Source: Bacteroidales bacterium (GTDB taxonomy: Bacteria; Bacteroidota; Bacteroidia; Bacteroidales; P3). From it: a DNA stretch of 64,000 nt. The stretch spans positions 1 to 64,000 of the forward strand of contig JAFZTV010000030.1 in the NCBI GenBank assembly GCA_017618625.1, read 5' to 3'. Shown here one piece after another: positions 15,271 to 39,363 of the stretch. The notes under the pieces were generated by a model that saw only the letters and a program-made list of their open reading frames with translations, ran no database searches and was not told the DNA's origin. How positions within the stretch are numbered: position 1 is the stretch's first letter; each line of letters opens with the position of its first letter. Made by a program: the position numbers and the translations under genes.

Positions 15271-16899
15271 TCAGAATCCAGTCCTGAACATGAACCAGAA
15301 CTGGTTCTCTAGGTTCTGCCATTCGGCGGAGGTCTGGTCGTATATTTTCTGGGTGTATGCGTTGAGCAGGTTGTCAATTTGGGTCTGGTAGCGTTTGCGG
15401 TCGGAGGCGTACTGAGCGTCGTCGCGGTTTTCTACGAGGGATTTGACTTGTTTCTCGAGAGCGTCGAGTTTAGTGAAGGCGATGTTTTCCTGACTAGCGA
15501 TGGACTTGTTCATGATGTCCTTAGTGCGCTGCCATGCGACGGTGGCAAGTTTGTTGGCTTTGCGATATTTCCATATGGCCGCGTCGGGGTTGTATTCGTT
15601 CTGACCACAAAGGGCGAAAGAGGTTGGGAGGATTGTAGTGCCACTGAAGACAGGCACACGGGGAGACTGAGCTGGGTTGTCGAAAGAGAGCCAGCAGACA
15701 CCACCGACCTCATCGGGAAGCCAGTCGCGGAGCTGGATGACGGTGGAGTAAGAACACCAAGCAACAGCAACGGTACGACGGAAGGTGACAGCATTCTCGT
15801 CGAGAGTGTTGTAGGTACTTTGGGTTGCGCTGGTCATCCATGGATTGGCAACCGGGCTGAGGAGGGTGTCACGCTGGGTGCGGCCGTTCTTGTCCTTGGA
15901 GTTTTTGACGTATTTTATGTTCTGGCACATGTCCAGGTCGGTACCCTCGTAGGTGGAGCGGAAGAGTTCCATGACCTTGCGAACGTCCACATGCTTGTCG
16001 GGACGGACGGAAAATGGAAGCTCGTCCATATCCATGGAGAGTTTCAGAGAGGGGGCGAGAGCGTTGAGGATGAAGTATTCGCGTTCGCGGAAGTTCTTGC
16101 CATTGGCGTAGTCTGGGATGAATGCTTTCCAGAAGATGAACTCGCCTTTGCCGTTCCAGAGTTTGTATTTTTTTGCCACTTTCTCGACGTTGTCGGAGGC
16201 CATGAAATATTCGGTGTTGGCACGGTTCATACGGCCGATGCGTGGTATGTTGGCCGAGACACCGACGTGCTCGTCGGGGATACGCTGGGCGGCCCAGATG
16301 GCACCAATCTCCTTCTCTCCGCAGCCCATGATTTCGAGCTGCCAGACTTCGTTGCGGTCGGCTATGGTGATGCACTCGCCTTCGTCGCCATAGCCGTACT
16401 GTTTGACGAGGTCACCGATGAGACGTATGGCGTCACGAGCGTTGTCGCAACGTTTCAGAACGATGCGCATGAGCTCCTCGATATTGAACATGCCGTCTTT
16501 GTTGACGAGGCATTTGGGGCCACCGAAGGTGGTTTCGCCAATGGCGAGCTGCTTTTCATTGAGGCAGGGGTAGGCGGAGTTGAGGTAAGCATAAGTGTGG
16601 GCAACCTGGGGGATGGTGCCGACGAGGCGGAGGCCAGTGGTGTCGGTGCGGTAGGATGTGTGGACGGTGCCCTTGTAGATATTCTCTTCAGCCTTTGAGT
16701 TATAGTCCTGAGCGGGTTCGACAGCAACCCAGGTGCGGTAGATGCCATCGCAAGTGTGGGAGGTGATGACACTGCCATCCATAGAGGCTTTTTTGCCCAC
16801 CATGATGCTGGTGCAGTTCTGGTGGTCATGGGGATAATCCTGGGCTTTGACGCCAAATGTCAGAAATAAAACTGCTGAGAGAAGAAGTAACTTTTTCAT
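15271..16899 (-). CDS. Secreted C69-family dipeptidase (PepD-like)
   Basis: A 542-residue N-terminal nucleophile peptidase of family C69. After a signal peptide ending near GVKAQ, the sequence HQNCTSIMVGKKASMDGSVITSHTCDG supplies the Cys that becomes the N-terminal nucleophile after processing, and the conserved DGS. Further family segments are GETTFGGPKCL, ECITIADRNEVWQLEIMG and the late CWLSFDNPAQSPRVPVFSG. It probably degrades di- and tripeptides in the periplasm, fitting the amino-acid-fermenting habit of many Bacteroidales. It is the first gene of a three-gene operon driven from the box at 16992-16999. Confidence 0.93.
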   Translation of the reverse strand: MKKLLLLSAVLFLTFGVKAQDYPHDHQNCTSIMVGKKASMDGSVITSHTCDGIYRTWVAVEPAQDYNSKAEENIYKGTVHTSYRTDTTGLRLVGTIPQVAHTYAYLNSAYPCLNEKQLAIGETTFGGPKCLVNKDGMFNIEELMRIVLKRCDNARDAIRLIGDLVKQYGYGDEGECITIADRNEVWQLEIMGCGEKEIGAIWAAQRIPDEHVGVSANIPRIGRMNRANTEYFMASDNVEKVAKKYKLWNGKGEFIFWKAFIPDYANGKNFREREYFILNALAPSLKLSMDMDELPFSVRPDKHVDVRKVMELFRSTYEGTDLDMCQNIKYVKNSKDKNGRTQRDTLLSPVANPWMTSATQSTYNTLDENAVTFRRTVAVAWCSYSTVIQLRDWLPDEVGGVCWLSFDNPAQSPRVPVFSGTTILPTSFALCGQNEYNPDAAIWKYRKANKLATVAWQRTKDIMNKSIASQENIAFTKLDALEKQVKSLVENRDDAQYASDRKRYQTQIDNLLNAYTQKIYDQTSAEWQNLENQFWFMFRTGF

Positions 16900-17100: not shown

Positions 17101-19752
17101 CTAGAGCTCATTGGAGAGGATAGTGATGAAACTTTCAGCGGCAGGCTCGATGAGGGCGTCGGGGAAGTCGTATGCGGGATGATGAAGTTCTGGACAGAGG
17201 TCGCCGGCACCGATGCCGAAAAAAGCACCACGGTAGCGGAGTAGGTAATTGGCAAAATCTTCGGACCAACGGAAGGGCTTTTGGATGCGCCGCACGGTGA
17301 AACCAGCAGAGGAAAGGGACTTTTCGAGGATGTCGGTGAGCTGGGCATCATTCTCGGTGGCCATGAATGGGTCACACACTGCGACGGCCATCTGCAATCC
17401 ATATTTCGTGCAGACGTCGGACACTATAGCATCGGCGTCGGCACGCAGGGAGTCCATGCGTTTGTTTGTGAAGGCCCGCAGAGTGAACATAACCTCGGCC
17501 GAACCAGCGGAAGTACCGTAGGCCTCCTCGCCGAGACGCACACAGATGAGGGTGCTCTGGGAGAAGGAATACAGAGGGTCGGGCTGGACAGTCTGGCTGG
17601 GCTGGCTGTTTTTGTCGTTCTTGGTGTTATGGTTTTTATTGCGCCAAGGAGTCAGAATGCTCGGTATGATAGAAAAACTCTGGGGGTTCGGCGCTTCAGG
17701 GGTGACGGTGCTATCGGCACTACAATTCAACCGCTCAAAACGCTCGATAATCTCGGACACGGCTTTGCCAGGGTTCAAGCCCTTCTCGGGTGTGGAGGCA
17801 TGGGTCTGGCGGCCAGCTATGGTGTATTTCACGCCAACGGAAGCAGCCGCGAAAGTGTCGCCACTCAAGAGTACTTCGCCCAATGGAACCCCGGGGATGT
17901 TGTGCAAGCCGTAAACGGCACGTATGTCGTAGCGCTGCATAATGCCGCTGTCGAGTATCTTCTGAGAGCCGCAACCCGTCTCCTCCTCTGGCTGGAAGAT
18001 GAGCATAATATTCTTGTCAGCGTAGAGGGAAGGCGCCTGGGCAATCATATCGGCGACCCTAAGCATTATGGCTGTGTGACCATCGTGCCCACACTTGTGA
18101 GAAACGCCTCTCACGGTGGAGCAGTATGGAAGCTCTGATGTTGAAAGAGATGGGCTGTCGTGATTCTCGGTCTCGCCATTGACAACTTGAAACTCGGAAG
18201 TAGAGACCGTTCCCTCATCGATGGGCAGGGCATCGGTGTCGGCACGCAGAGCTATGGTAGGGAAATCAGGATTATCGCCGAAGACTGCCACAACACCGTA
18301 GCCGCTGACACGGCCAAAGAACTCTGATGGAGTGTCGGATGACTCGCCAGAAGAGCCCGCATCGCCCACATAGGAGAACACGGTGCAGTCGGGATAGGCA
18401 TTAAGGCAGCCAACAATCATATCATGGGCGAACACCTCGTTGCCCGAAAGACCGGGATGGGCGTGGAGTTCGTGCCGCACATGGCAGCGTACCAGGTCTT
18501 TGAATACGCGTCCACGTTCCTCGAAATTCTTGAAGCTATCATAACTAGCTGCAGCAGGAGAAAGCAGGCACACCTTGCCGACCTCGGTCACCTTGAAACA
18601 CCACTCAACAATCTTGCCATAGTCGTTCTCCTTTATAATATTCCTCTCACCACCAACCGGCCACCGAGTACAGGCCAAATCATACATACGCTCACCCGCC
18701 GCACCTACGAAGGCGATGTTTCTCACCTCGCTATTGGCCAGAAAATCTATCAAGCCGGCGTAGTCTATTCCACGGTCGAAACCACCAAGAATTAGAGTTT
18801 GCACGTCACCGACGGCCTTAACCGCCGCCTCGCAGGCTGCCGGAATAGTAGAGATGGAGTCGTTATAGAAACGAATTCCCTTGTATGCACCAACATATTC
18901 AAGCCTGTGTTCCAAGCCCTTGAACTCGGTCACCGCCCGTTTGAACACCTCGCCATCTATGCAGTACAACTGCGCCACATGGGCAACAGCCTCAATGTTG
19001 CTACGGTTGTGTTCGCCTGGCAGACGACTTGACACACTGCCGTAAACAGGCTGGTCGTCAGCCGAATAGGATTCAACCTGAGAACGGAACTGCTCTTGGC
19101 AGGAGTCGACCAAAGAGGATAGCTCGGCGTTGTCTTTACAATATATAAAGGTGTCGCCGTCACACTGGCGCAAGCCAATCTGCATCTTGGCCATCTTGTA
19201 GCCGTCATAGCTCTCATAGTGGTCCAGATGCTCCTGAAAGAGATTGAGCAGAACTCCGATATGCGGACCACGGTGTATGTTCTCCAACTGATGGCACGAC
19301 AACTCAGCCACAACTATGGTTGAGATGTCCATCTGCTCGACGAGTTCAAAAAGCGGTATGCCTATGTTGCCGCCCAACAGCACATTGTAGCCAGCGGCCT
19401 TGAACACATTGTATATTAACGAGGTCGTGGTGCTCTTTCCTTTGGTGCCGGTGACACCGATTACCTGGTCGCCATAAACCCGCAGGAAGACGTCGGTCAT
19501 GGAAGTCACCTCGGTCTTGCGGCACAAGTCACTCAGCACACTCATAGGAACGCCAGGGGACTTCACCACCATATCGTAATTATTATCAGTGAGAGCCGCA
19601 CGAATCGCCTCGTTGTTCTCGGCTGTAGCAACCTCGGCACAGACTCCCAGCTTCTCAAGCAGAGCCAGCGCCGACTTGCCCTCACGCCCCAAACCGGCAA
19701 TCAAAACCCTTTTGCCTTCGAAAATACGCCGTATATCCGCTTCTAGATACAC
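17101..19752 (-). CDS. MurD2-type ligase fused to an M20D amidohydrolase
   Basis: One uninterrupted frame of 883 residues. Residues 1-421 are a Mur ligase of MurD type: GLGREGKSALALL, P-loop TGTKGKSTTT at 101-110, LNLFQEHLDHYES, and KNFEERGRVFKDLV at the end. The usual NDSKATN of MurD reads NDSISTIP (297-304), as I recall for the L-glutamate-adding MurD2 group. From residue 423 an M20D amidohydrolase follows without a linker: RHELHAHPGLSGNE, metal motif CGHDGHT (554-560), GLHNIPGVPLGEVL, and SEDFANYLLRYRGAFFGIG then HHPAYDFPDALIEP. All expected metal ligands appear present. murL lies immediately upstream. I infer synthesis of UDP-MurNAc-L-Ala-L-Glu by the first half. The role of the second half is unknown; acyl-amino-acid or acetyl-DAP deacylation are family activities. 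Confidence 0.88.
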   Translation of the reverse strand: MYLEADIRRIFEGKRVLIAGLGREGKSALALLEKLGVCAEVATAENNEAIRAALTDNNYDMVVKSPGVPMSVLSDLCRKTEVTSMTDVFLRVYGDQVIGVTGTKGKSTTTSLIYNVFKAAGYNVLLGGNIGIPLFELVEQMDISTIVVAELSCHQLENIHRGPHIGVLLNLFQEHLDHYESYDGYKMAKMQIGLRQCDGDTFIYCKDNAELSSLVDSCQEQFRSQVESYSADDQPVYGSVSSRLPGEHNRSNIEAVAHVAQLYCIDGEVFKRAVTEFKGLEHRLEYVGAYKGIRFYNDSISTIPAACEAAVKAVGDVQTLILGGFDRGIDYAGLIDFLANSEVRNIAFVGAAGERMYDLACTRWPVGGERNIIKENDYGKIVEWCFKVTEVGKVCLLSPAAASYDSFKNFEERGRVFKDLVRCHVRHELHAHPGLSGNEVFAHDMIVGCLNAYPDCTVFSYVGDAGSSGESSDTPSEFFGRVSGYGVVAVFGDNPDFPTIALRADTDALPIDEGTVSTSEFQVVNGETENHDSPSLSTSELPYCSTVRGVSHKCGHDGHTAIMLRVADMIAQAPSLYADKNIMLIFQPEEETGCGSQKILDSGIMQRYDIRAVYGLHNIPGVPLGEVLLSGDTFAAASVGVKYTIAGRQTHASTPEKGLNPGKAVSEIIERFERLNCSADSTVTPEAPNPQSFSIIPSILTPWRNKNHNTKNDKNSQPSQTVQPDPLYSFSQSTLICVRLGEEAYGTSAGSAEVMFTLRAFTNKRMDSLRADADAIVSDVCTKYGLQMAVAVCDPFMATENDAQLTDILEKSLSSAGFTVRRIQKPFRWSEDFANYLLRYRGAFFGIGAGDLCPELHHPAYDFPDALIEPAAESFITILSNEL

Positions 19753-19867
19753 CCTTTGAGTTTGCTTGAATGAGTTATTGTTTAGTGAGTTAGCGATTAA
19801 CTTTGTTTATATTCCGTTGCCTTTGTAAGCGACGTGGAAAACCATACGCTCACTTAGCAACAAATTG

Positions 19868-19875
19868 CAAAAATA
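19868..19875 (-). promoter_or_regulatory. -7 box for the murD-M20 fusion gene
   Basis: Minus-strand TATTTTTG followed by CAA matches TAnnTTTG and lies about 115 bp upstream of the fusion gene ATG, in the 171-bp gap after murL. The fusion gene therefore seems to have its own promoter in addition to any read-through from murL. Confidence 0.6.
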
Positions 19876-19923
19876 CGATTTTTTGCCAAAACATATACCT
19901 TAAACGTAGCCTAGGCTGAAAAG

Positions 19924-21279
19924 TTACGCTATGGAAGCTTTAAGTATTCCTAGTTCTGCGGCCGACAAGTTGTGGTCGTTGAAAAGGGTTTCGGTGCTTA
20001 CCATTTCGCCACTGTAATCGAAAGCTCTCAGTAGAGCAGGCATGTGGGAGTCGGTATACCAGCGGCGTTTGGCCATCATGAGGGCTGTATTGACTTCGCT
20101 GATAGTGCCGACACACTCGAAAGGCTTGCTTTCGGTGTGGCCAGTCAGCTCCTCGAAATAGCCGCGAAGCTCGCAGTCGTCGAGCATCGACTTGCCGAAT
20201 ATGGCGTTCAGACGGTCAGGCTCGATGAACGGCGAAAGAATGATGTATGCAAAAAGGCACTTGGCGCATCTGCCGCACCAGATGTCCTGCTTGCTGCCGG
20301 CATTGCAGCTCTTAAACACATCGAAATACTTGTCGTGACGGGAGAAAAGCATGGCAATCTGCAACTCGCTAAGCGGTCGCAGGAAGCTGAAATAGTTCAC
20401 ATTGGCCGTCACATATTTCGCCACATACGTACGGAAATCGTTCTCAAACTCAAGACTTTTTGAATACTGATGGTTCACTGTACTGCCTGCCACCGTTGAT
20501 TCGTTGGCACTATTCTCGTTGGACAAGGCAACGTTACGTACCCCTGCCAGCGTCGCCGCCAACAGCGTATAAAAGGCCAGCATGGCCGAGAAGGGAGTGT
20601 GCCCGTTCAGACAGCCCTTGGCATTCAGGCCAAGCAGTGTTGAATCGATACGACGATTGATGATAAGAGTCTCCTCCGGCGAGAAACCGCCTCGCTCGGC
20701 ACACATAGTCGTAGCTCCGCGAGGGTTCATTATCAACGGCCTAACACCTTGGTTGCGTAGAAGTTCGAGCGTTACCACCGAGTCTTTGCCGCCTCCGATG
20801 GGAACGAGATAATTGGTAGCCTGATTGAATGACTTCATGGTAGATGGAGTATTTGCATCTGGATTATTGCACTCACATTCGATAGTCATGAAGTCATCTA
20901 TCGTGGCACGGATGCCGTTGGTGTAAAAGAACTCGCCCAAGCCGTTGAAGTAAATCTTCTTCCAGAATCGGACCTGCTCGGAATCGAGGCTATGGGGCAG
21001 CACCCTTACCACTTTGGGGCATACGCACTTCCAATAACTCACCAACTCTATCATGCCGATATTGAAAACCAGCGAATCCATCAGCTCTTTCGGCTGATCG
21101 AAATTCAAAAAAGGTCTATGCGGAATCGAGGCCGTCGGATGAAACACAATCTTATCGTTCAGCCGAAACGAAAACTCCATCCGAAGTCCCTCGGCATCGA
21201 CGGTATACGAGTAGTTCTCGTACACCATCTCGCCGAAAGTCATCCGGTATGTGTTATATTTTTTTTGATTGCTAACCAC
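19924..21279 (-). CDS. murL: UDP-MurNAc-L-Ala-L-Glu epimerase (MurL family)
   Basis: A 451-residue cytosolic protein with the hallmarks of MurL, the ATP-dependent enzyme that inverts the terminal L-Glu of UDP-MurNAc-L-Ala-L-Glu to D-Glu (shown in Xanthomonas oryzae). Visible are the PP-loop-like LVPIGGGKDS (158-167), LNGHTPFSA (224-232), SNENSAN (253-259), NHQYSKSLEFE (269-279), the SCN at 324, the Cys cluster WCGRCAKC (334-341), and KPFECVG. The frame opens with GTG at 21279; an ATG at 21243 is a possible alternative start. It lies 30 bp behind the coiled-coil lipoprotein gene and upstream of the MurD2-like fusion, the same pairing as murL-murD2 in Xanthomonas. Confidence 0.9.
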   Translation of the reverse strand: MVSNQKKYNTYRMTFGEMVYENYSYTVDAEGLRMEFSFRLNDKIVFHPTASIPHRPFLNFDQPKELMDSLVFNIGMIELVSYWKCVCPKVVRVLPHSLDSEQVRFWKKIYFNGLGEFFYTNGIRATIDDFMTIECECNNPDANTPSTMKSFNQATNYLVPIGGGKDSVVTLELLRNQGVRPLIMNPRGATTMCAERGGFSPEETLIINRRIDSTLLGLNAKGCLNGHTPFSAMLAFYTLLAATLAGVRNVALSNENSANESTVAGSTVNHQYSKSLEFENDFRTYVAKYVTANVNYFSFLRPLSELQIAMLFSRHDKYFDVFKSCNAGSKQDIWCGRCAKCLFAYIILSPFIEPDRLNAIFGKSMLDDCELRGYFEELTGHTESKPFECVGTISEVNTALMMAKRRWYTDSHMPALLRAFDYSGEMVSTETLFNDHNLSAAELGILKASIA

Positions 21280-21309: not shown

Positions 21310-23373
21310 CTATTTCAAAGTAAAGCTCACCTTGCCGATTTCGTTACCGTTGGCATACAGGGTGACCCAGTAGAGGCCAGGCTCCATGACCACACTGTCG
21401 AGTTTGCGCCATACGATGCTCACCTTGCGGGAGCCGCCCCAGAACTCGATGTCCTGCTTTGCGGTGTATTGAATTTCGGTGTCGCCGCTCTTGAAGGTGT
21501 CGGAATTGGCGCCCTCGTTGCTCACCAGACGGTTCTTGGAGTTGGAGATGCGAGCGTATATCGTGATGGTGCCAGGGTCAACCACATAGTTGTCAAGGAT
21601 GGTAGCGTCGATTTTTACGAGCTTCACGTCACTGCCTTTTGAGGCCTCTTTCACCACGGTGCCGCTGATGCTCTTGCCGGGAGTAGCCACCACGTCGGTG
21701 GTGACGAGTATGCTGGCTTTCTCAAGTTTCTGACGGATTTTATCGCTCTGGCTGTCAAGTTTGCGCAGTTCGCTGTTTTCGGCTTTGAGCTGCCCGTTCT
21801 CGGCTTTGAGCTGCTCGTTTTCGGCACGCAGACGTTCGATTTCGGCGACATAGCTGTCACACAGCTTCTGCAGCTCGGAAAGTTTCTGGTTGACATTGGA
21901 TGCCGAAGGAGCGGAAGCGCTGGCTTGAACGGATACGTTGGCGTTGGCCGAAGCACTAGCCTTAGCGTCAGCCGCCTCTTTCAGAGCGGCCTCGGTCCTG
22001 TTGTTGGCAGCGGTGAGGTCGGCCTGAGCCTTGGCGAGGACCGCTTCCTTCTCGTTCAGCTGCTTCTGCAGTTTTGCCAGGTCGGCCTTCTGGTTCTCAA
22101 CCTGAGCCTGCAATGTGGCAATCTGCTGTTCATATTTTGCGTTGGCTGAGACGTTGGCCGAAGCCGAAGCAGCAACCGAAGCGTTGGCTTTAGCCAGGTC
22201 GGCGTCCTTCTTCGACAGGTCGCTCTGAGCGGCAGAAAGCTGTGCCTCAAGTTCTTTCACACGAACGTTAAGATTAGAGACGCTGGCTTCCAGCTGTGCG
22301 GATTTGGAGTTGCACTGGGAGAGCTGGGCTTCGAGTTGCTGGTTGGCTGACACATTGGCCGAGGCCGAGACGCTGGCGGAAGACTCGAGTTTCGACACCT
22401 TCTCGTTGCACTGGGAGAGCTGGGCTTCAAGCTGAGCCTTGGACTTCTCGAGCTGAGAAAGCTGAGCGTTGAGCTGCTTCACCTGACCTTCGAGCTGCAC
22501 GTTGGCAGAAGCGGAAGCGGAGGCAGAGGCCTGCTGGCTGTTGAGGACCTTCATCTGGTCGTTCAATGCGGCGATGTCTGACTCGAGTTTCGTTATCTTG
22601 GCGCTCAACTGTGCGTTCTTGGTGTTCAGTTCAGCGTTCTGCTTGGAGAGACTTTCGTTCTGTTTTGTGAGAGCCGAGACATTGGCTGAGACATCGGCTT
22701 TTGCCGAGCCCGAAGCCTTGAGCTCGCCATTCAAGCCCTCAATACGAGTGTTGAGAGAAGAGATCTGGCCGTTAAGGTTTGCAATAACGCCCTCCTGCTG
22801 AGATACTTGCTTCTGGAGTTTCTCTACCTGGGCCTTGCACTGAGCCTCACTGGCGGAAGCGTTGGCAGAAACGGCGGCAGAAGCTGAAGCGGACGCCGAG
22901 GCATTATTCTTCAACTGGGCAATCTCTTTCTCCTGAGCGTCGAGACGGCGCTGGAGTTCTTTTATGACCGACTCTTTAGAGCGCAACTCAGCCTCCTGTT
23001 TGCTGCAATCGGCCGAGACCGAAGCGGAGGCAGAGACGTTTCCTCCAGCAGTAGCCTGGGCACTCACACTGGACGATTGTCTGGACGACTTCTGACTGCT
23101 CCTCGCACGGCGCAGCTGGGCAAGGAGGTCGCGAATCTCGGCAGCCTGGGCATTGATGGTGCTGTCTTTCTGCGTCATCTGACCGTCGAATTCCTGGTTG
23201 TCAGCCTTCACTTTTGCATACTGTTCCATTATGCTGTCGTAACGCTCCTGCATGGCGATAAGTTCCTTTTCGGACACTTTCACACCGCTTTTGTCACAGG
23301 ACACCGTCGATAACATCGTAGCCACGGTCACTGCCGCAACTATCAAAAACCGCTTACTGTAATTCATTTTCAT
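21310..23373 (-). CDS. Long coiled-coil lipoprotein with Ser-Ala-rich spacers
   Basis: A 687-residue lipoprotein starting at 23373 (MKMNYSKRF), with an ATG two codons later as an alternative. The lipobox is STVSC. Most of the chain is heptad coiled coil rich in Gln, Lys, Glu and Leu (LNGQISSLNTRIEGLNGELKA, and the RLRAENEQLKAENGQLK run). It is broken at least seven times by low-complexity stretches such as ASASASASAAVSANASAS and SASVSASANVSANQQ. The last ~150 residues form a beta-rich domain (GTITIYARISNSKNRLVS; YWVTLYANGNEIGKVSF). It probably spans part of the periplasm from a membrane anchor. The gene has its own promoter and may be co-transcribed with murL. No named family recognised. Confidence 0.85.
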   Translation of the reverse strand: MKMNYSKRFLIVAAVTVATMLSTVSCDKSGVKVSEKELIAMQERYDSIMEQYAKVKADNQEFDGQMTQKDSTINAQAAEIRDLLAQLRRARSSQKSSRQSSSVSAQATAGGNVSASASVSADCSKQEAELRSKESVIKELQRRLDAQEKEIAQLKNNASASASASAAVSANASASEAQCKAQVEKLQKQVSQQEGVIANLNGQISSLNTRIEGLNGELKASGSAKADVSANVSALTKQNESLSKQNAELNTKNAQLSAKITKLESDIAALNDQMKVLNSQQASASASASANVQLEGQVKQLNAQLSQLEKSKAQLEAQLSQCNEKVSKLESSASVSASANVSANQQLEAQLSQCNSKSAQLEASVSNLNVRVKELEAQLSAAQSDLSKKDADLAKANASVAASASANVSANAKYEQQIATLQAQVENQKADLAKLQKQLNEKEAVLAKAQADLTAANNRTEAALKEAADAKASASANANVSVQASASAPSASNVNQKLSELQKLCDSYVAEIERLRAENEQLKAENGQLKAENSELRKLDSQSDKIRQKLEKASILVTTDVVATPGKSISGTVVKEASKGSDVKLVKIDATILDNYVVDPGTITIYARISNSKNRLVSNEGANSDTFKSGDTEIQYTAKQDIEFWGGSRKVSIVWRKLDSVVMEPGLYWVTLYANGNEIGKVSFTLK

Positions 23374-23408
23374 GTATCTTAATGTTTTGTTTGTTTCCAA
23401 ATAGGCTG

Positions 23409-36522: not shown

Positions 36523-39363
36523 ATGAACAAACGTGTCTTAGCGATTATGCTTGCGGTGGCAGGCTTGCAACTTTTCTCGGTCAGCGAGGCGTGGGCCCAG
36601 GCCATGAAGGAGATTGCCACGGGTCTGCAAAACGTGAAACTGTATGTCGGAGTTGACCGCTTCGAGGTGAGGAGGGCATCCGACGGCCTCACCATCGCCT
36701 ACGGCCACTGCCCCACGGGCAACCAGCTGCCGCCGGCCATGCTGTGGTGGATGGGCGAGTATGACCGCGAGATTGAGTTCGCCAAAGCTCAGGGCCTCTC
36801 GGTCGGCAACGGCCACTGGGCCGAACGCAACGGACGCACCAAGGCCGCCGGCGACACCGTGGCTCCTATGATCGACTCTCGCTGGCGTCAGTACATCGGC
36901 TACAACCGCCACTGTCCCGACGACACCACTCTGGCCGACCTGGGCGGGCATCCGACCACGGGTTGCGTGGCTACGGCCATGGCTCAGATTATGCGCTACT
37001 GGCAGTTCCCGCAGCACGGCATGGGGAGGATAAGCTACTCTCACGAAGGCGAATACGAATGTTGGCGCTACGGTGTGCAGACCGCCGACTTCGCCAACAC
37101 TCAATACGACTGGGCCAACATGCCTCCGATGCTTACCGACAGCAGCTCCGAGGCGCAGATAGAGGCCGTCTCCACGCTGTGCTACCACTGCGGCGTCAGC
37201 GTGAAGATGATGTACAACAGCGACTGCTCCGGCAGCAGCGGCGCCTACAGCTCTCACGCCTCCACCGCCTTCACTAACACGTTCCACTACAAGCCCAACC
37301 ACTGCCTGAACCGCAACAGCTATTCCCTCAGCCAGTGGCAGATGATACTGAAAAACGAGATGGACAACGGCCGCCCGGTCCTTTACGGCGGTCAGTCTAT
37401 TGAGGACACGGCCCGTGGCATCGGCGGCGGCGGCCACGCCTTCATCGCCGATGGATACGACACCAACGGCTATTTCCACATCAACTGGGGCTGGGGCGGC
37501 TGGTACGATGGCTATTTCGCCATCTCCATGCTCAACCCCGCCGAGCGTTACGAGTTCAACTATGCCCAGCAGGCGGTAGTAGGCGTTGAACCCGAACACA
37601 ACGCACTGGCCGTGCCGCTGCTCGTCCAAGGCATCGACCTCGACGGCGAGGACTTCCAGACCGGCGGCAACGTGAGGGGCAGCTATGCCGTCGCCAACGT
37701 GGGCGACACCGTGTATGACGGCTACATCGGCGTCAACGTCTATAAACCCGGTTCCTACGACTTCTACGGCTGGCTCGACGCCACCGAGGTGCACATACAG
37801 CCCGGCGACACCGTCTTCAGAACCTTCGACAACCCCGGAATGACTCGTCCCGTAGGCGTCTATTACGCTTTGGGCCAGTATAACGCCACTCCCCTTTACA
37901 TAACAGACGAGGTCGACAACGCCCTTGCCTGCTTCGACAACGGCCAGGCCTTCTTCAAATCGATCGACACCAACCGCTCCGAACTGCGTAACGTGACCAT
38001 TTGCGTCTCCTTTGCCGACGAGCAGGAATGGCTCAGCCGCACCCCCTCAAGCCTTGCCTCCGACATCGAGACCGAAGGCGGCGACAGCTTCTCCCTGCAC
38101 AACTACGTCTTCGCCACCACCGACCAGCACACCCACCTCCGTACCATCATGGCCAACGGCGAGTGGCACGACACCATCATCACCTACATCGACCCCAACC
38201 CTCGCAGCCACTACCTGCCCTACTCTGCCGACAACCCCGACGGTTACCTCTGCGAATCTAACCGCACCATGCGTATCAACGAACTCATCGGCGACATGGT
38301 GGCGGCCCTCACCGAGGCCGGCATCATCGACTACGACCTCGTTATCGACGGCGACGGCGACGGATACATTGACCTGCTCACCATCATCTTCAAGGACAGC
38401 CTGCCCATTTTCGAAATCGGCTACAAACCCGAAACCGGCTTCTACGGCGGCAACGCCCACCTCAACTACCGCAAAGTCGGCAACTACACCATCGTCAACG
38501 AAAACGCCGACGTCAGCGCCCACTGCTACGGTGCCATGCGCATGCTGGGTCTGCCCGACATGAGCCATCGGCAGGCCTGGACTCGGGTCGAACCCCTCGG
38601 CGAGTGGGACATGATGGACCGCCCCAACCGCCAGCAGCCTTCCTACATCCTGAAACACCGTTTCCTGAACCTCGGTGACGAACCCACCGTCCTGACCGAA
38701 AGCGGTTGGTACAGCCTGGGCGACGGCACCCAGTGCTACAAAATCCCCTTCACAATCGACCCCAACAGTAGCTTTCTGCTCGAAATGCGTGACCAGTCCA
38801 ACCTCTTCGACCAGGGCGTGCCGGCAAGCGGCCTCACCGTGGCTCGCTGGAACAGCGACGGCTGCAACGCCGAATTCGACAACGCCAGCACCCCTCACCT
38901 GCTTTGGATGATGCGTCCCGGCTCCGACTGCGACACCGTCCAGGGCAGCCTCGACCTCGCCGCCGTCAACGAACTGCGTACCTTCTGGACCGGCGACAGC
39001 AGCTACTTCACCATCGACTCGGTGAGCATGACCGAAAGCCTTTCTAACAACATCTTGACCTTCAAGCTCACCTTCTTCACCGTCGAACCTGAACCCGAAC
39101 CTGAACCTGAGCCCGAACCCAACGCCATCGACAACGCCTCGGCCTCTGGCATCGCCGTCTATCCCAACCCCACCAAGGGCATGGTTTACATCAAATCCGA
39201 CGTCACCCCGCTCGTCGAGGTCATCTCCGTCACTGGCCAGACCATGATTAAATCCCAAGGCCGAACCATCGACCTCACCCAACTCTCTCCCGGTATCTAC
39301 ATGCTCCGTATCTCCAACTCCCACGGCACCACCGTCAAAAAGGTGATGCTGACCGAGCAATAA
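36523..39363 (+). CDS. Secreted C10 (streptopain-type) peptidase with degenerate M6-like domain and T9SS tail
   Basis: A 946-residue secreted protein. The signal peptide ends near AWAQ (residue 26). A C10 cysteine-peptidase domain follows, with nucleophile Cys148 in TTGCVATAMAQIMRYW and His305 in GGGGHAFIADGYD. Residues ~510-830 resemble an M6 (InhA-like) metallopeptidase: DYDLVIDGDGDGYIDLLTIIF, then MLGLPDMSH and GEWDMMDRPNRQQPSYILKHRF. The zinc motif HExxH, however, reads HCYGA at 667-671. A Glu-Pro repeat linker leads to a type A sorting domain (AVYPNPTKGMVYI, ending VKKVMLTEQ) that would direct it through the type IX system. The C10 half looks active and the M6 half inactive. Confidence 0.9.
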   Translation: MNKRVLAIMLAVAGLQLFSVSEAWAQAMKEIATGLQNVKLYVGVDRFEVRRASDGLTIAYGHCPTGNQLPPAMLWWMGEYDREIEFAKAQGLSVGNGHWAERNGRTKAAGDTVAPMIDSRWRQYIGYNRHCPDDTTLADLGGHPTTGCVATAMAQIMRYWQFPQHGMGRISYSHEGEYECWRYGVQTADFANTQYDWANMPPMLTDSSSEAQIEAVSTLCYHCGVSVKMMYNSDCSGSSGAYSSHASTAFTNTFHYKPNHCLNRNSYSLSQWQMILKNEMDNGRPVLYGGQSIEDTARGIGGGGHAFIADGYDTNGYFHINWGWGGWYDGYFAISMLNPAERYEFNYAQQAVVGVEPEHNALAVPLLVQGIDLDGEDFQTGGNVRGSYAVANVGDTVYDGYIGVNVYKPGSYDFYGWLDATEVHIQPGDTVFRTFDNPGMTRPVGVYYALGQYNATPLYITDEVDNALACFDNGQAFFKSIDTNRSELRNVTICVSFADEQEWLSRTPSSLASDIETEGGDSFSLHNYVFATTDQHTHLRTIMANGEWHDTIITYIDPNPRSHYLPYSADNPDGYLCESNRTMRINELIGDMVAALTEAGIIDYDLVIDGDGDGYIDLLTIIFKDSLPIFEIGYKPETGFYGGNAHLNYRKVGNYTIVNENADVSAHCYGAMRMLGLPDMSHRQAWTRVEPLGEWDMMDRPNRQQPSYILKHRFLNLGDEPTVLTESGWYSLGDGTQCYKIPFTIDPNSSFLLEMRDQSNLFDQGVPASGLTVARWNSDGCNAEFDNASTPHLLWMMRPGSDCDTVQGSLDLAAVNELRTFWTGDSSYFTIDSVSMTESLSNNILTFKLTFFTVEPEPEPEPEPEPNAIDNASASGIAVYPNPTKGMVYIKSDVTPLVEVISVTGQTMIKSQGRTIDLTQLSPGIYMLRISNSHGTTVKKVMLTEQ

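Follow-up and report, generated by a model that had tools for sequence, protein, structure and literature searches.

We analyzed a stretch of 64,000 nucleotides (nt) from a Bacteroidales bacterium (GCA_017618625.1, contig JAFZTV010000030.1, positions 1-64,000; hereafter the window), in which a gene for a relative of the epimerase MurL adjoins a gene that begins with a MurD2-type ligase. Textbook accounts of wall synthesis include the entry of D-glutamate (D-Glu), and this locus very probably encodes both enzymes of an alternative, L-glutamate (L-Glu)-first route to it: MurD2 would attach L-Glu to the cell-wall precursor, and MurL would then flip the precursor-bound L-Glu to the D form. Both open reading frames (ORFs) lie exactly where a first-pass annotation of the window had placed them. 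The locus comprises the following features.

19924..21279 (-), murL-like epimerase gene, 451 amino acids (aa), GTG start
20779..20796 (-), GGGKDS, PP-loop-like motif of MurL
20257..20280 (-), WCGRCAKC, cysteine motif of MurL
17101..19752 (-), murD2-M20 fusion gene, 883 aa, GTG start
18487..19752 (-), MurD2-type ligase part, residues 1-422
19213..19236 (-), QEHLDHYE, with E at the position of E. coli D182, a MurD2 determinant
18841..18864 (-), NDSISTIP, at the NDSKATN site of MurD
18763..18786 (-), GGFDRGID, with R at the position of E. coli K348, a MurD2 determinant
17104..18483 (-), M20 amidohydrolase part, residues 424-883

A murL-like gene next to a MurD2-type ligase gene

The 451-aa protein was matched by NF041275, the NCBIfam model for MurL (E 2.5e-80, 270 bits, residues 29-409). 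It also contains all four motifs on which the first-pass annotation had based its assignment, GGGKDS, SNENSAN, NHQYSKS and WCGRCAKC, beginning at residues 162, 253, 269 and 334, respectively, so that its relationship to MurL stands far beyond chance. In a 19-row MurL alignment, GGGKDS, NHQYSK, and the W, C, C, K and C of WC..C.KC were invariant. Variation was seen at the fourth position of SNENSAN, at the last S of NHQYSKS (T once), and at G, R and A within WCGRCAKC. The predicted structure resembles the PP-loop fold of QueC and QatC, which suits the ATP-to-AMP chemistry of MurL, and we take GGGKDS to be the PP-loop motif; the cysteines of WCGRCAKC may form a metal site. The likeness is one of model fold, with a sequence identity of 8-14%, and QueC and QatC act on deazaguanine, whereas the MurL substrate would be a nucleotide-linked peptide. 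At most, then, MurL may work like QueC. MurL did not match the QueC family PF06508, a Pfam scan (E <= 0.001) returned just DUF6395, below its cut-off, and a search of PDB sequences gave no credible match (best E 0.26). PF26298 and PF26299 are carried by the 120 database relatives of MurL listed; the discoverers of MurL reported no known conserved domain in it, in the available portions of their papers (PMC8788868, PMC5808125).

For comparison we used 24 loci (L labels) from 24 genomes (G labels) obtained by a contig scan for MurL, the closest MurL being 85% identical to that of the window. They are titled Bacteroidales, Bacteroidetes or Colimorpha metagenome-assembled genomes (MAGs), many from rumen or gut, together with one Delongbacteria and one Clostridium; the first 13 loci come from G001-G013, the genomes nearest to the window. 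The pairing of MurL with a MurD2-type ligase, which the first-pass annotation had pointed out, recurs in these relatives: MurD2 comes after MurL in 20 of the 24 loci (at a distance of about 2 kb in L004), and the two are fused into one protein in L009, L010, L018 and L023. The pairs in L020 (Delongbacteria) and L021 (Clostridium) lie in two phyla beyond the published list of taxa, which, in the accessible parts of PMC8788868 and PMC5808125, names Gamma- and Alphaproteobacteria and rare actinobacteria, and no Bacteroidota.

The neighbor of MurL belongs to the MurD family, as TIGR01087 (murD) matched residues 15-422 above its cut-off (292 bits versus 212), and NDSISTIP is indeed found at the NDSKATN site, starting at residue 297. 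In Xanthomonas oryzae MurD2, E197D/R358K, at the positions of E. coli D182 and K348, switches the enzyme to D-Glu, and K319T let E. coli MurD accept L-Glu (PMC8788868, in the part available). E occupied the D182 position in all 21 rows of our alignment (the window and 20 MurL-linked relatives), and R at K348 and I at K319 were present in 20/20 rows reaching these sites (the window and 19 relatives; the G011 sequence is cut). In the same alignment, the full-length MurDs encoded in the division and cell wall (dcw) clusters of G015 and G017 retained D, K and K. The window ligase carries both L-Glu determinants, and L-Glu specificity itself is predicted. The assignment of the ligase as MurD2-type was therefore upheld, with the correction that the whole gene at 17101-19752 is a MurD2-M20 fusion. 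The replacement of NDSKATN by NDSISTIP, taken earlier as a mark of MurD2, proved not to be diagnostic: G021, the Clostridium genome of L021, retains a second, full-length MurD that is not linked to MurL, likewise lacks K319 and reads NDSVSSSP. Because of this protein the K319 site alone is not decisive, and we dropped it as a hallmark.

MurL and glutamate racemase in Bacteroidales

No murI gene scored above the cut-off in any of the 24 MurL relatives, the sole hit being weak (G020, E 1.9e-5). D-amino-acid transaminase was likewise over its cut-off in none of the 24; 22 have weaker matches, mostly to short parts of frames of 338-405 aa. We then scanned 393 genomes of the order to which G001 belongs, counting murI as strong at E <= 1e-25. 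MurL was found in 124 genomes (including G076, whose MurL is a fragment; E 7.5e-5) and strong murI in 243, and no genome had both; strong murI was thus present in 0/124 MurL genomes versus 243/269 MurL-less genomes. The 26 genomes with neither (for example, G039, G265 and G178) may be incomplete assemblies or may use a third source of D-Glu. Among 296 genomes drawn from the phylum, MurL was convincing solely in G001, with two partial matches (E 1.0e-4 and 2.9e-4).

This distribution supports, for the relatives, the replacement of glutamate racemase by MurL. In view of its relatives, the window organism itself would also lack murI. The first-pass annotation had set its reading against a canonical murD in the dcw cluster accompanied by murI. 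In the relatives this combination was absent, and in G001-G013 the dcw murD is represented by its C-terminal domain. The murD part of it did occur: many MurL relatives without murI retain a dcw murD that is full length and of the D-Glu type. The window contains no dcw gene detectable by tblastn with 13 G001 proteins (E <= 1e-3). Because no murI was found in G001-G013 and their dcw murD is reduced to the C-terminal domain, we infer that the L-Glu-first route is the sole one in this clade. The proposal of such a route is thus supported by comparison, from the E and R determinants together with the lack of murI above the cut-off. The window resembles the X. oryzae MurD2/MurL system (XOO_1320/XOO_1319) in the gene pair, the two ligase determinants and the MurL family match, and its relatives do so in the lack of murI and D-amino-acid transaminase above the cut-off. 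It differs in its Bacteroidales host, the fusion of MurD2 to M20 and a MurL score under the cut-off of the Xanthomonadales model, and many of its relatives differ in having the dcw murD cut to the C-terminal domain.

The fused M20 domain and flanking genes

From residue 424 onward the fusion protein was matched by TIGR01891 (M20 amidohydrolase) at 168 bits, above the cut-off of 154, and this part holds RADTDALP, HKCGHDGHTA, EEETGCG and HHPAYDF, the usual M20 metal-site motifs. An M20 gene follows MurD2 or is fused to it in 11 of 20 loci, with fusions like that of the window in L001, L002 and L004. The domain could be an acyl-diaminopimelate (acyl-DAP) deacylase supplying MurE and not an unrelated passenger, a hypothesis that we hold only tentatively. 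A deacylase would be expected because DapD is present and DAP apparently needed, and LL-DAP aminotransferase and DAP dehydrogenase are mostly lacking above cut-off. The cut-off of the DapD succinyltransferase model NF008808 was exceeded in 5/5 ORFs scanned (G001, G004, G006, G014 and G023, from eight loci retrieved), DNPR, which we take to mark DAP, occurs in MurE of 24/24 relatives, and LL-DAP aminotransferase (TIGR03542) and DAP dehydrogenase were each missing above cut-off in 23/24. In addition, three separate M20 relatives match the diaminobutanoate deacetylase DoeB2, under its cut-off. On the other hand, DapE models match the domain weakly, a separate dapE may exist, TIGR03542 represents a single aminotransferase type, weaker hits to aminotransferases occur in 24/24, and TIGR00965 dapD stays under its own cut-off. 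We rejected a place for M20 in the DapH acetyl route: the DapH model was unreached in 24/24, and the five matches scanned were DapD.

A C69 dipeptidase family gene (15271-16899) lies downstream of murD2-M20 and shares its strand. Upstream of murL, 21310-23400 encodes a long coiled-coil protein with many Ala/Ser-rich stretches, for which Pfam gave generic coiled-coil matches only. Farther away, 36523-39363 encodes a C10-family peptidase bearing a Por secretion C-terminal tail.

The dcw murD gene in MurL genomes

Between mraY and ftsW, the dcw clusters of the relatives contain a gene that mostly encodes 178-182 aa, corresponding to the MurD C-terminal domain alone (half-MurD). It is present in all 13 of G001-G013, although in G006 it is placed between ftsL and ftsI. 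The half-MurDs of G018 and G023 are divergent (186 and 162 aa; 49 and 55 bits), and murD of G015 and G017 is full length. Stand-alone genes of this kind were found as follows.

L069:7843-8391, MurD C-terminal-domain gene
L056:7267-7806, MurD C-terminal-domain gene
63 further genomes, MurD C-terminal-domain genes

A half-MurD profile applied to the 124 MurL genomes gave 118 dcw-type hits, of which 117 were classed, 47 as half and 70 as full (G131, G076 and G119 being counted as full length although cut); G044, G101, G153, G184, G205 and G259 gave no dcw-type hit, and G403, cut by a contig end, was left unclassed. With 20 further MurL genomes from the scan for relatives, 65 of 137 genomes have the half form and 72 the full form. 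Half forms are 162-199 aa long, exactly 179 or 182 aa in 40/65, and the gap from 199 to 443 aa holds just four frames truncated at contig ends and that of G036 (379 aa, a doubtful start call). Among the 120 database hits of one half form listed, with candidates restricted to about 100-318 aa, 67 are exactly 182 aa. As a control, we used 80 MurL-less genomes, 54 with and 26 without strong murI. The profile matched 53/54 murI genomes, with full-length frames (>= 444 aa) in 53/53. Short control murD genes occurred in G039 (a 212-aa frame) and G265 (broken), both without MurL and without strong murI, as is G276 (a 391-aa frame); G041 and G323 gave no match. Fisher and rank tests on these sets ignore kinship.

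By both sequence and fold, half-MurD is the C-terminal domain of MurD at murD's place (except in G006): its model has a mean predicted local distance difference test (pLDDT) score of 76, with the first 45 residues low, and its best 33 PDB matches are all MurD. Unlike MurD, it lacks the N-terminal domain and the ATP-binding central domain with its P-loop in all 65 genomes, and its catalytic residues are mostly lost. A fusion of half-MurD to ftsW, suspected from frames of 585-622 aa in G004, G005, G007 and G024, was discarded, as each of the four has a separate gene of 178-179 aa.

In a tree of mraY and ftsW from the 137 genomes, the half/full state requires 16 changes, 12 of them forced by starred branches. 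The number was 14-20 in 100 bootstraps, and 16-22 if changes are one-way truncations, a count that rests on midpoint rooting. The tree was built with FastTree, which warned of long branches meeting, and transfer of whole dcw clusters may have contributed to these counts. Many of the separate truncations start at about one Met codon, M265 of full-length murD.

The full-length murD genes of MurL lineages probably also make a short MurD, from an internal translation start at M265, to judge from codon choice. Met stands at the half-MurD start in 68/69 full-length murD genes of MurL genomes, and at the strict alignment column in 66/68 genes from MurL genomes versus 29/40 from murI genomes. The 20 bases 5' of M265 in MurL genomes have A at a frequency of 0.48, G at 0.07 and A at -3 at 0.76; the corresponding values for the remaining internal Mets are 0.33, 0.21 and 0.35, and 0.38, 0.16 and 0.62 at M265 in 29 murI genes. 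With a measure of synonymous A-excess, which removes residue choice, the top 12 of 437 windows in 67 MurL genes fall between 5 codons before and 12 after M265. When seven dcw genes were compared in 20 MurL genomes, the M265 place ranked first among 2901 inner windows (z 6.0, with a G z of -3.6) and exceeded the real starts, which reach at most z 4.1; in 40 murI genomes it reaches at most 1.8. The other 48 MurL genes agree (median z 1.76 versus 0.65 in murI genomes; p 1.9e-6, ignoring kinship). Thirteen genomes with neither MurL nor strong murI are intermediate (median z 1.65, Met in 12/13, p 0.088 versus murI genomes). A start general to Bacteroidales murD, hinted at by a first MurL-minus set of genomes with and without murI, was dropped given the weak signal in the 40 murI genomes.

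It is also conceivable, although we think it unlikely, that the A-rich, G-poor stretch reflects a property of the mRNA or the linker and that no short isoform is made. The weakly positive signal of murI genomes, which is alike with and without Met (median z 0.68 and 0.63), speaks for this and against an internal start, and among the 437 windows the one at M265 took 20th place, behind its neighbors. Such a property fits less well with a signal that persists in a synonymous measure, exceeds that of real starts and is weak in murI genomes, is repeated in 48 further MurL genes, and sits at the very place where half-form genes begin.

The retention of long MurD bears on the L-Glu-first route as well. 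The P-loop K, D182 (N in one), K319 and K348 are retained in 69/69 full-length dcw MurDs scored from MurL genomes, and several further points likewise weigh against that route: the window MurL scores 270 bits, below the curated cut-off of 700 bits of NF041275, by its name a Xanthomonadales equivalog model; weaker murI-family hits occur in 27/124 MurL genomes (best E 6e-22); fuller transaminase hits below the cut-off occur in G017 (E 3.5e-28) and G019 (E 3.8e-29); and the genomes counted, mostly MAGs by title, may be incomplete. One MurL genome among the 124, G280, has almost all of its bases on one contig. Because their full-length MurDs keep D-Glu-type residues, part of the MurL group may still use D-Glu from a source that is not evident; salvage, a bifunctional racemase or a further role of the long form may explain its retention. 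MurL and MurD2 might then supply only part of the pool, with another racemase and canonical MurD making the precursor. A candidate would be a bifunctional DapF, as reported for Chlamydia, where it acts as a racemase for D-Glu (PMC5885031, in the portion available). We regard this as improbable: in 65/137 MurL genomes, including all of G001-G013, dcw MurD has lost its catalytic part, and canonical MurD therefore cannot be needed there.

Conservation of the half forms was assessed in 187 pairs with a synonymous rate (dS) below 2, and the figures cover the 40 pairs of least dS. The ratio of the nonsynonymous rate (dN) to dS was 0.05-0.23 in the 8 pairs with dN < 0.3 and 0.29-0.88 in the other 32, in which we take dS as saturated; the close pairs show purifying selection on half-MurD. 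DSKAT is intact in 19/65 half forms and the K348 equivalent is kept in 20%, while W86, I87, V108, G115, A141, V142, S158, P159 and F177 (half-form alignment numbering) are kept at 92-98%. Because catalytic positions decay while these nine structural positions stay, the MurD C-terminal domain is probably retained for something other than ligation. That half-MurD is instead a functionless, decaying remnant of a dispensable murD, its constant length due to ancestry, seems very unlikely: the catalytic losses, the strong divergence in G018 and G023 and the broken murD of G265 would suit a remnant, but the shared starting codon of many independent truncations, the low dN/dS of the close pairs, the nine conserved positions, the near absence of intermediate lengths and the recurrence of exactly 182 aa among the database hits all oppose it.

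Taken together, these observations suggest that MurL-using Bacteroidales would keep making a stand-alone MurD C-terminal domain, from either a half gene or an internal start. Its most likely role, admittedly a guess, would be non-catalytic, as a subunit that helps the wall-precursor enzymes dock or assemble; where MurI is used, we would guess that the C-terminal domain does the same job within full MurD. The chances seem to us about even for a more specific proposal: that the dcw murD of MurL Bacteroidales is the source of a separate C-terminal-domain protein dedicated to MurD2-MurL as a non-catalytic partner, for example, an adaptor to the membrane wall machinery, and that selection keeps the locus for this protein and not for D-Glu ligation.

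Among the open-access papers listed by our searches, none described MurL from Bacteroidota, half-MurD or an internal start in MurD, and the accessible part of PMC12502697 mentions neither MurL nor MurD2. Half-MurD, its repeated origin and the M265 signature, all found outside the window in its relatives, are new. In a major order of gut and rumen bacteria, about one-third of the genomes sampled (124/393) appear to use the rarer route to D-Glu, so that the essentiality of murI and the targeting of MurI by drugs may not carry over to them, and MurD2 and MurL would be narrow-spectrum targets. The QueC-like fold offers a testable chemistry for MurL. Finally, the repeated cutting of murD to one domain constitutes a natural experiment, which would imply a directly testable role for the MurD C-terminal domain beyond catalysis.

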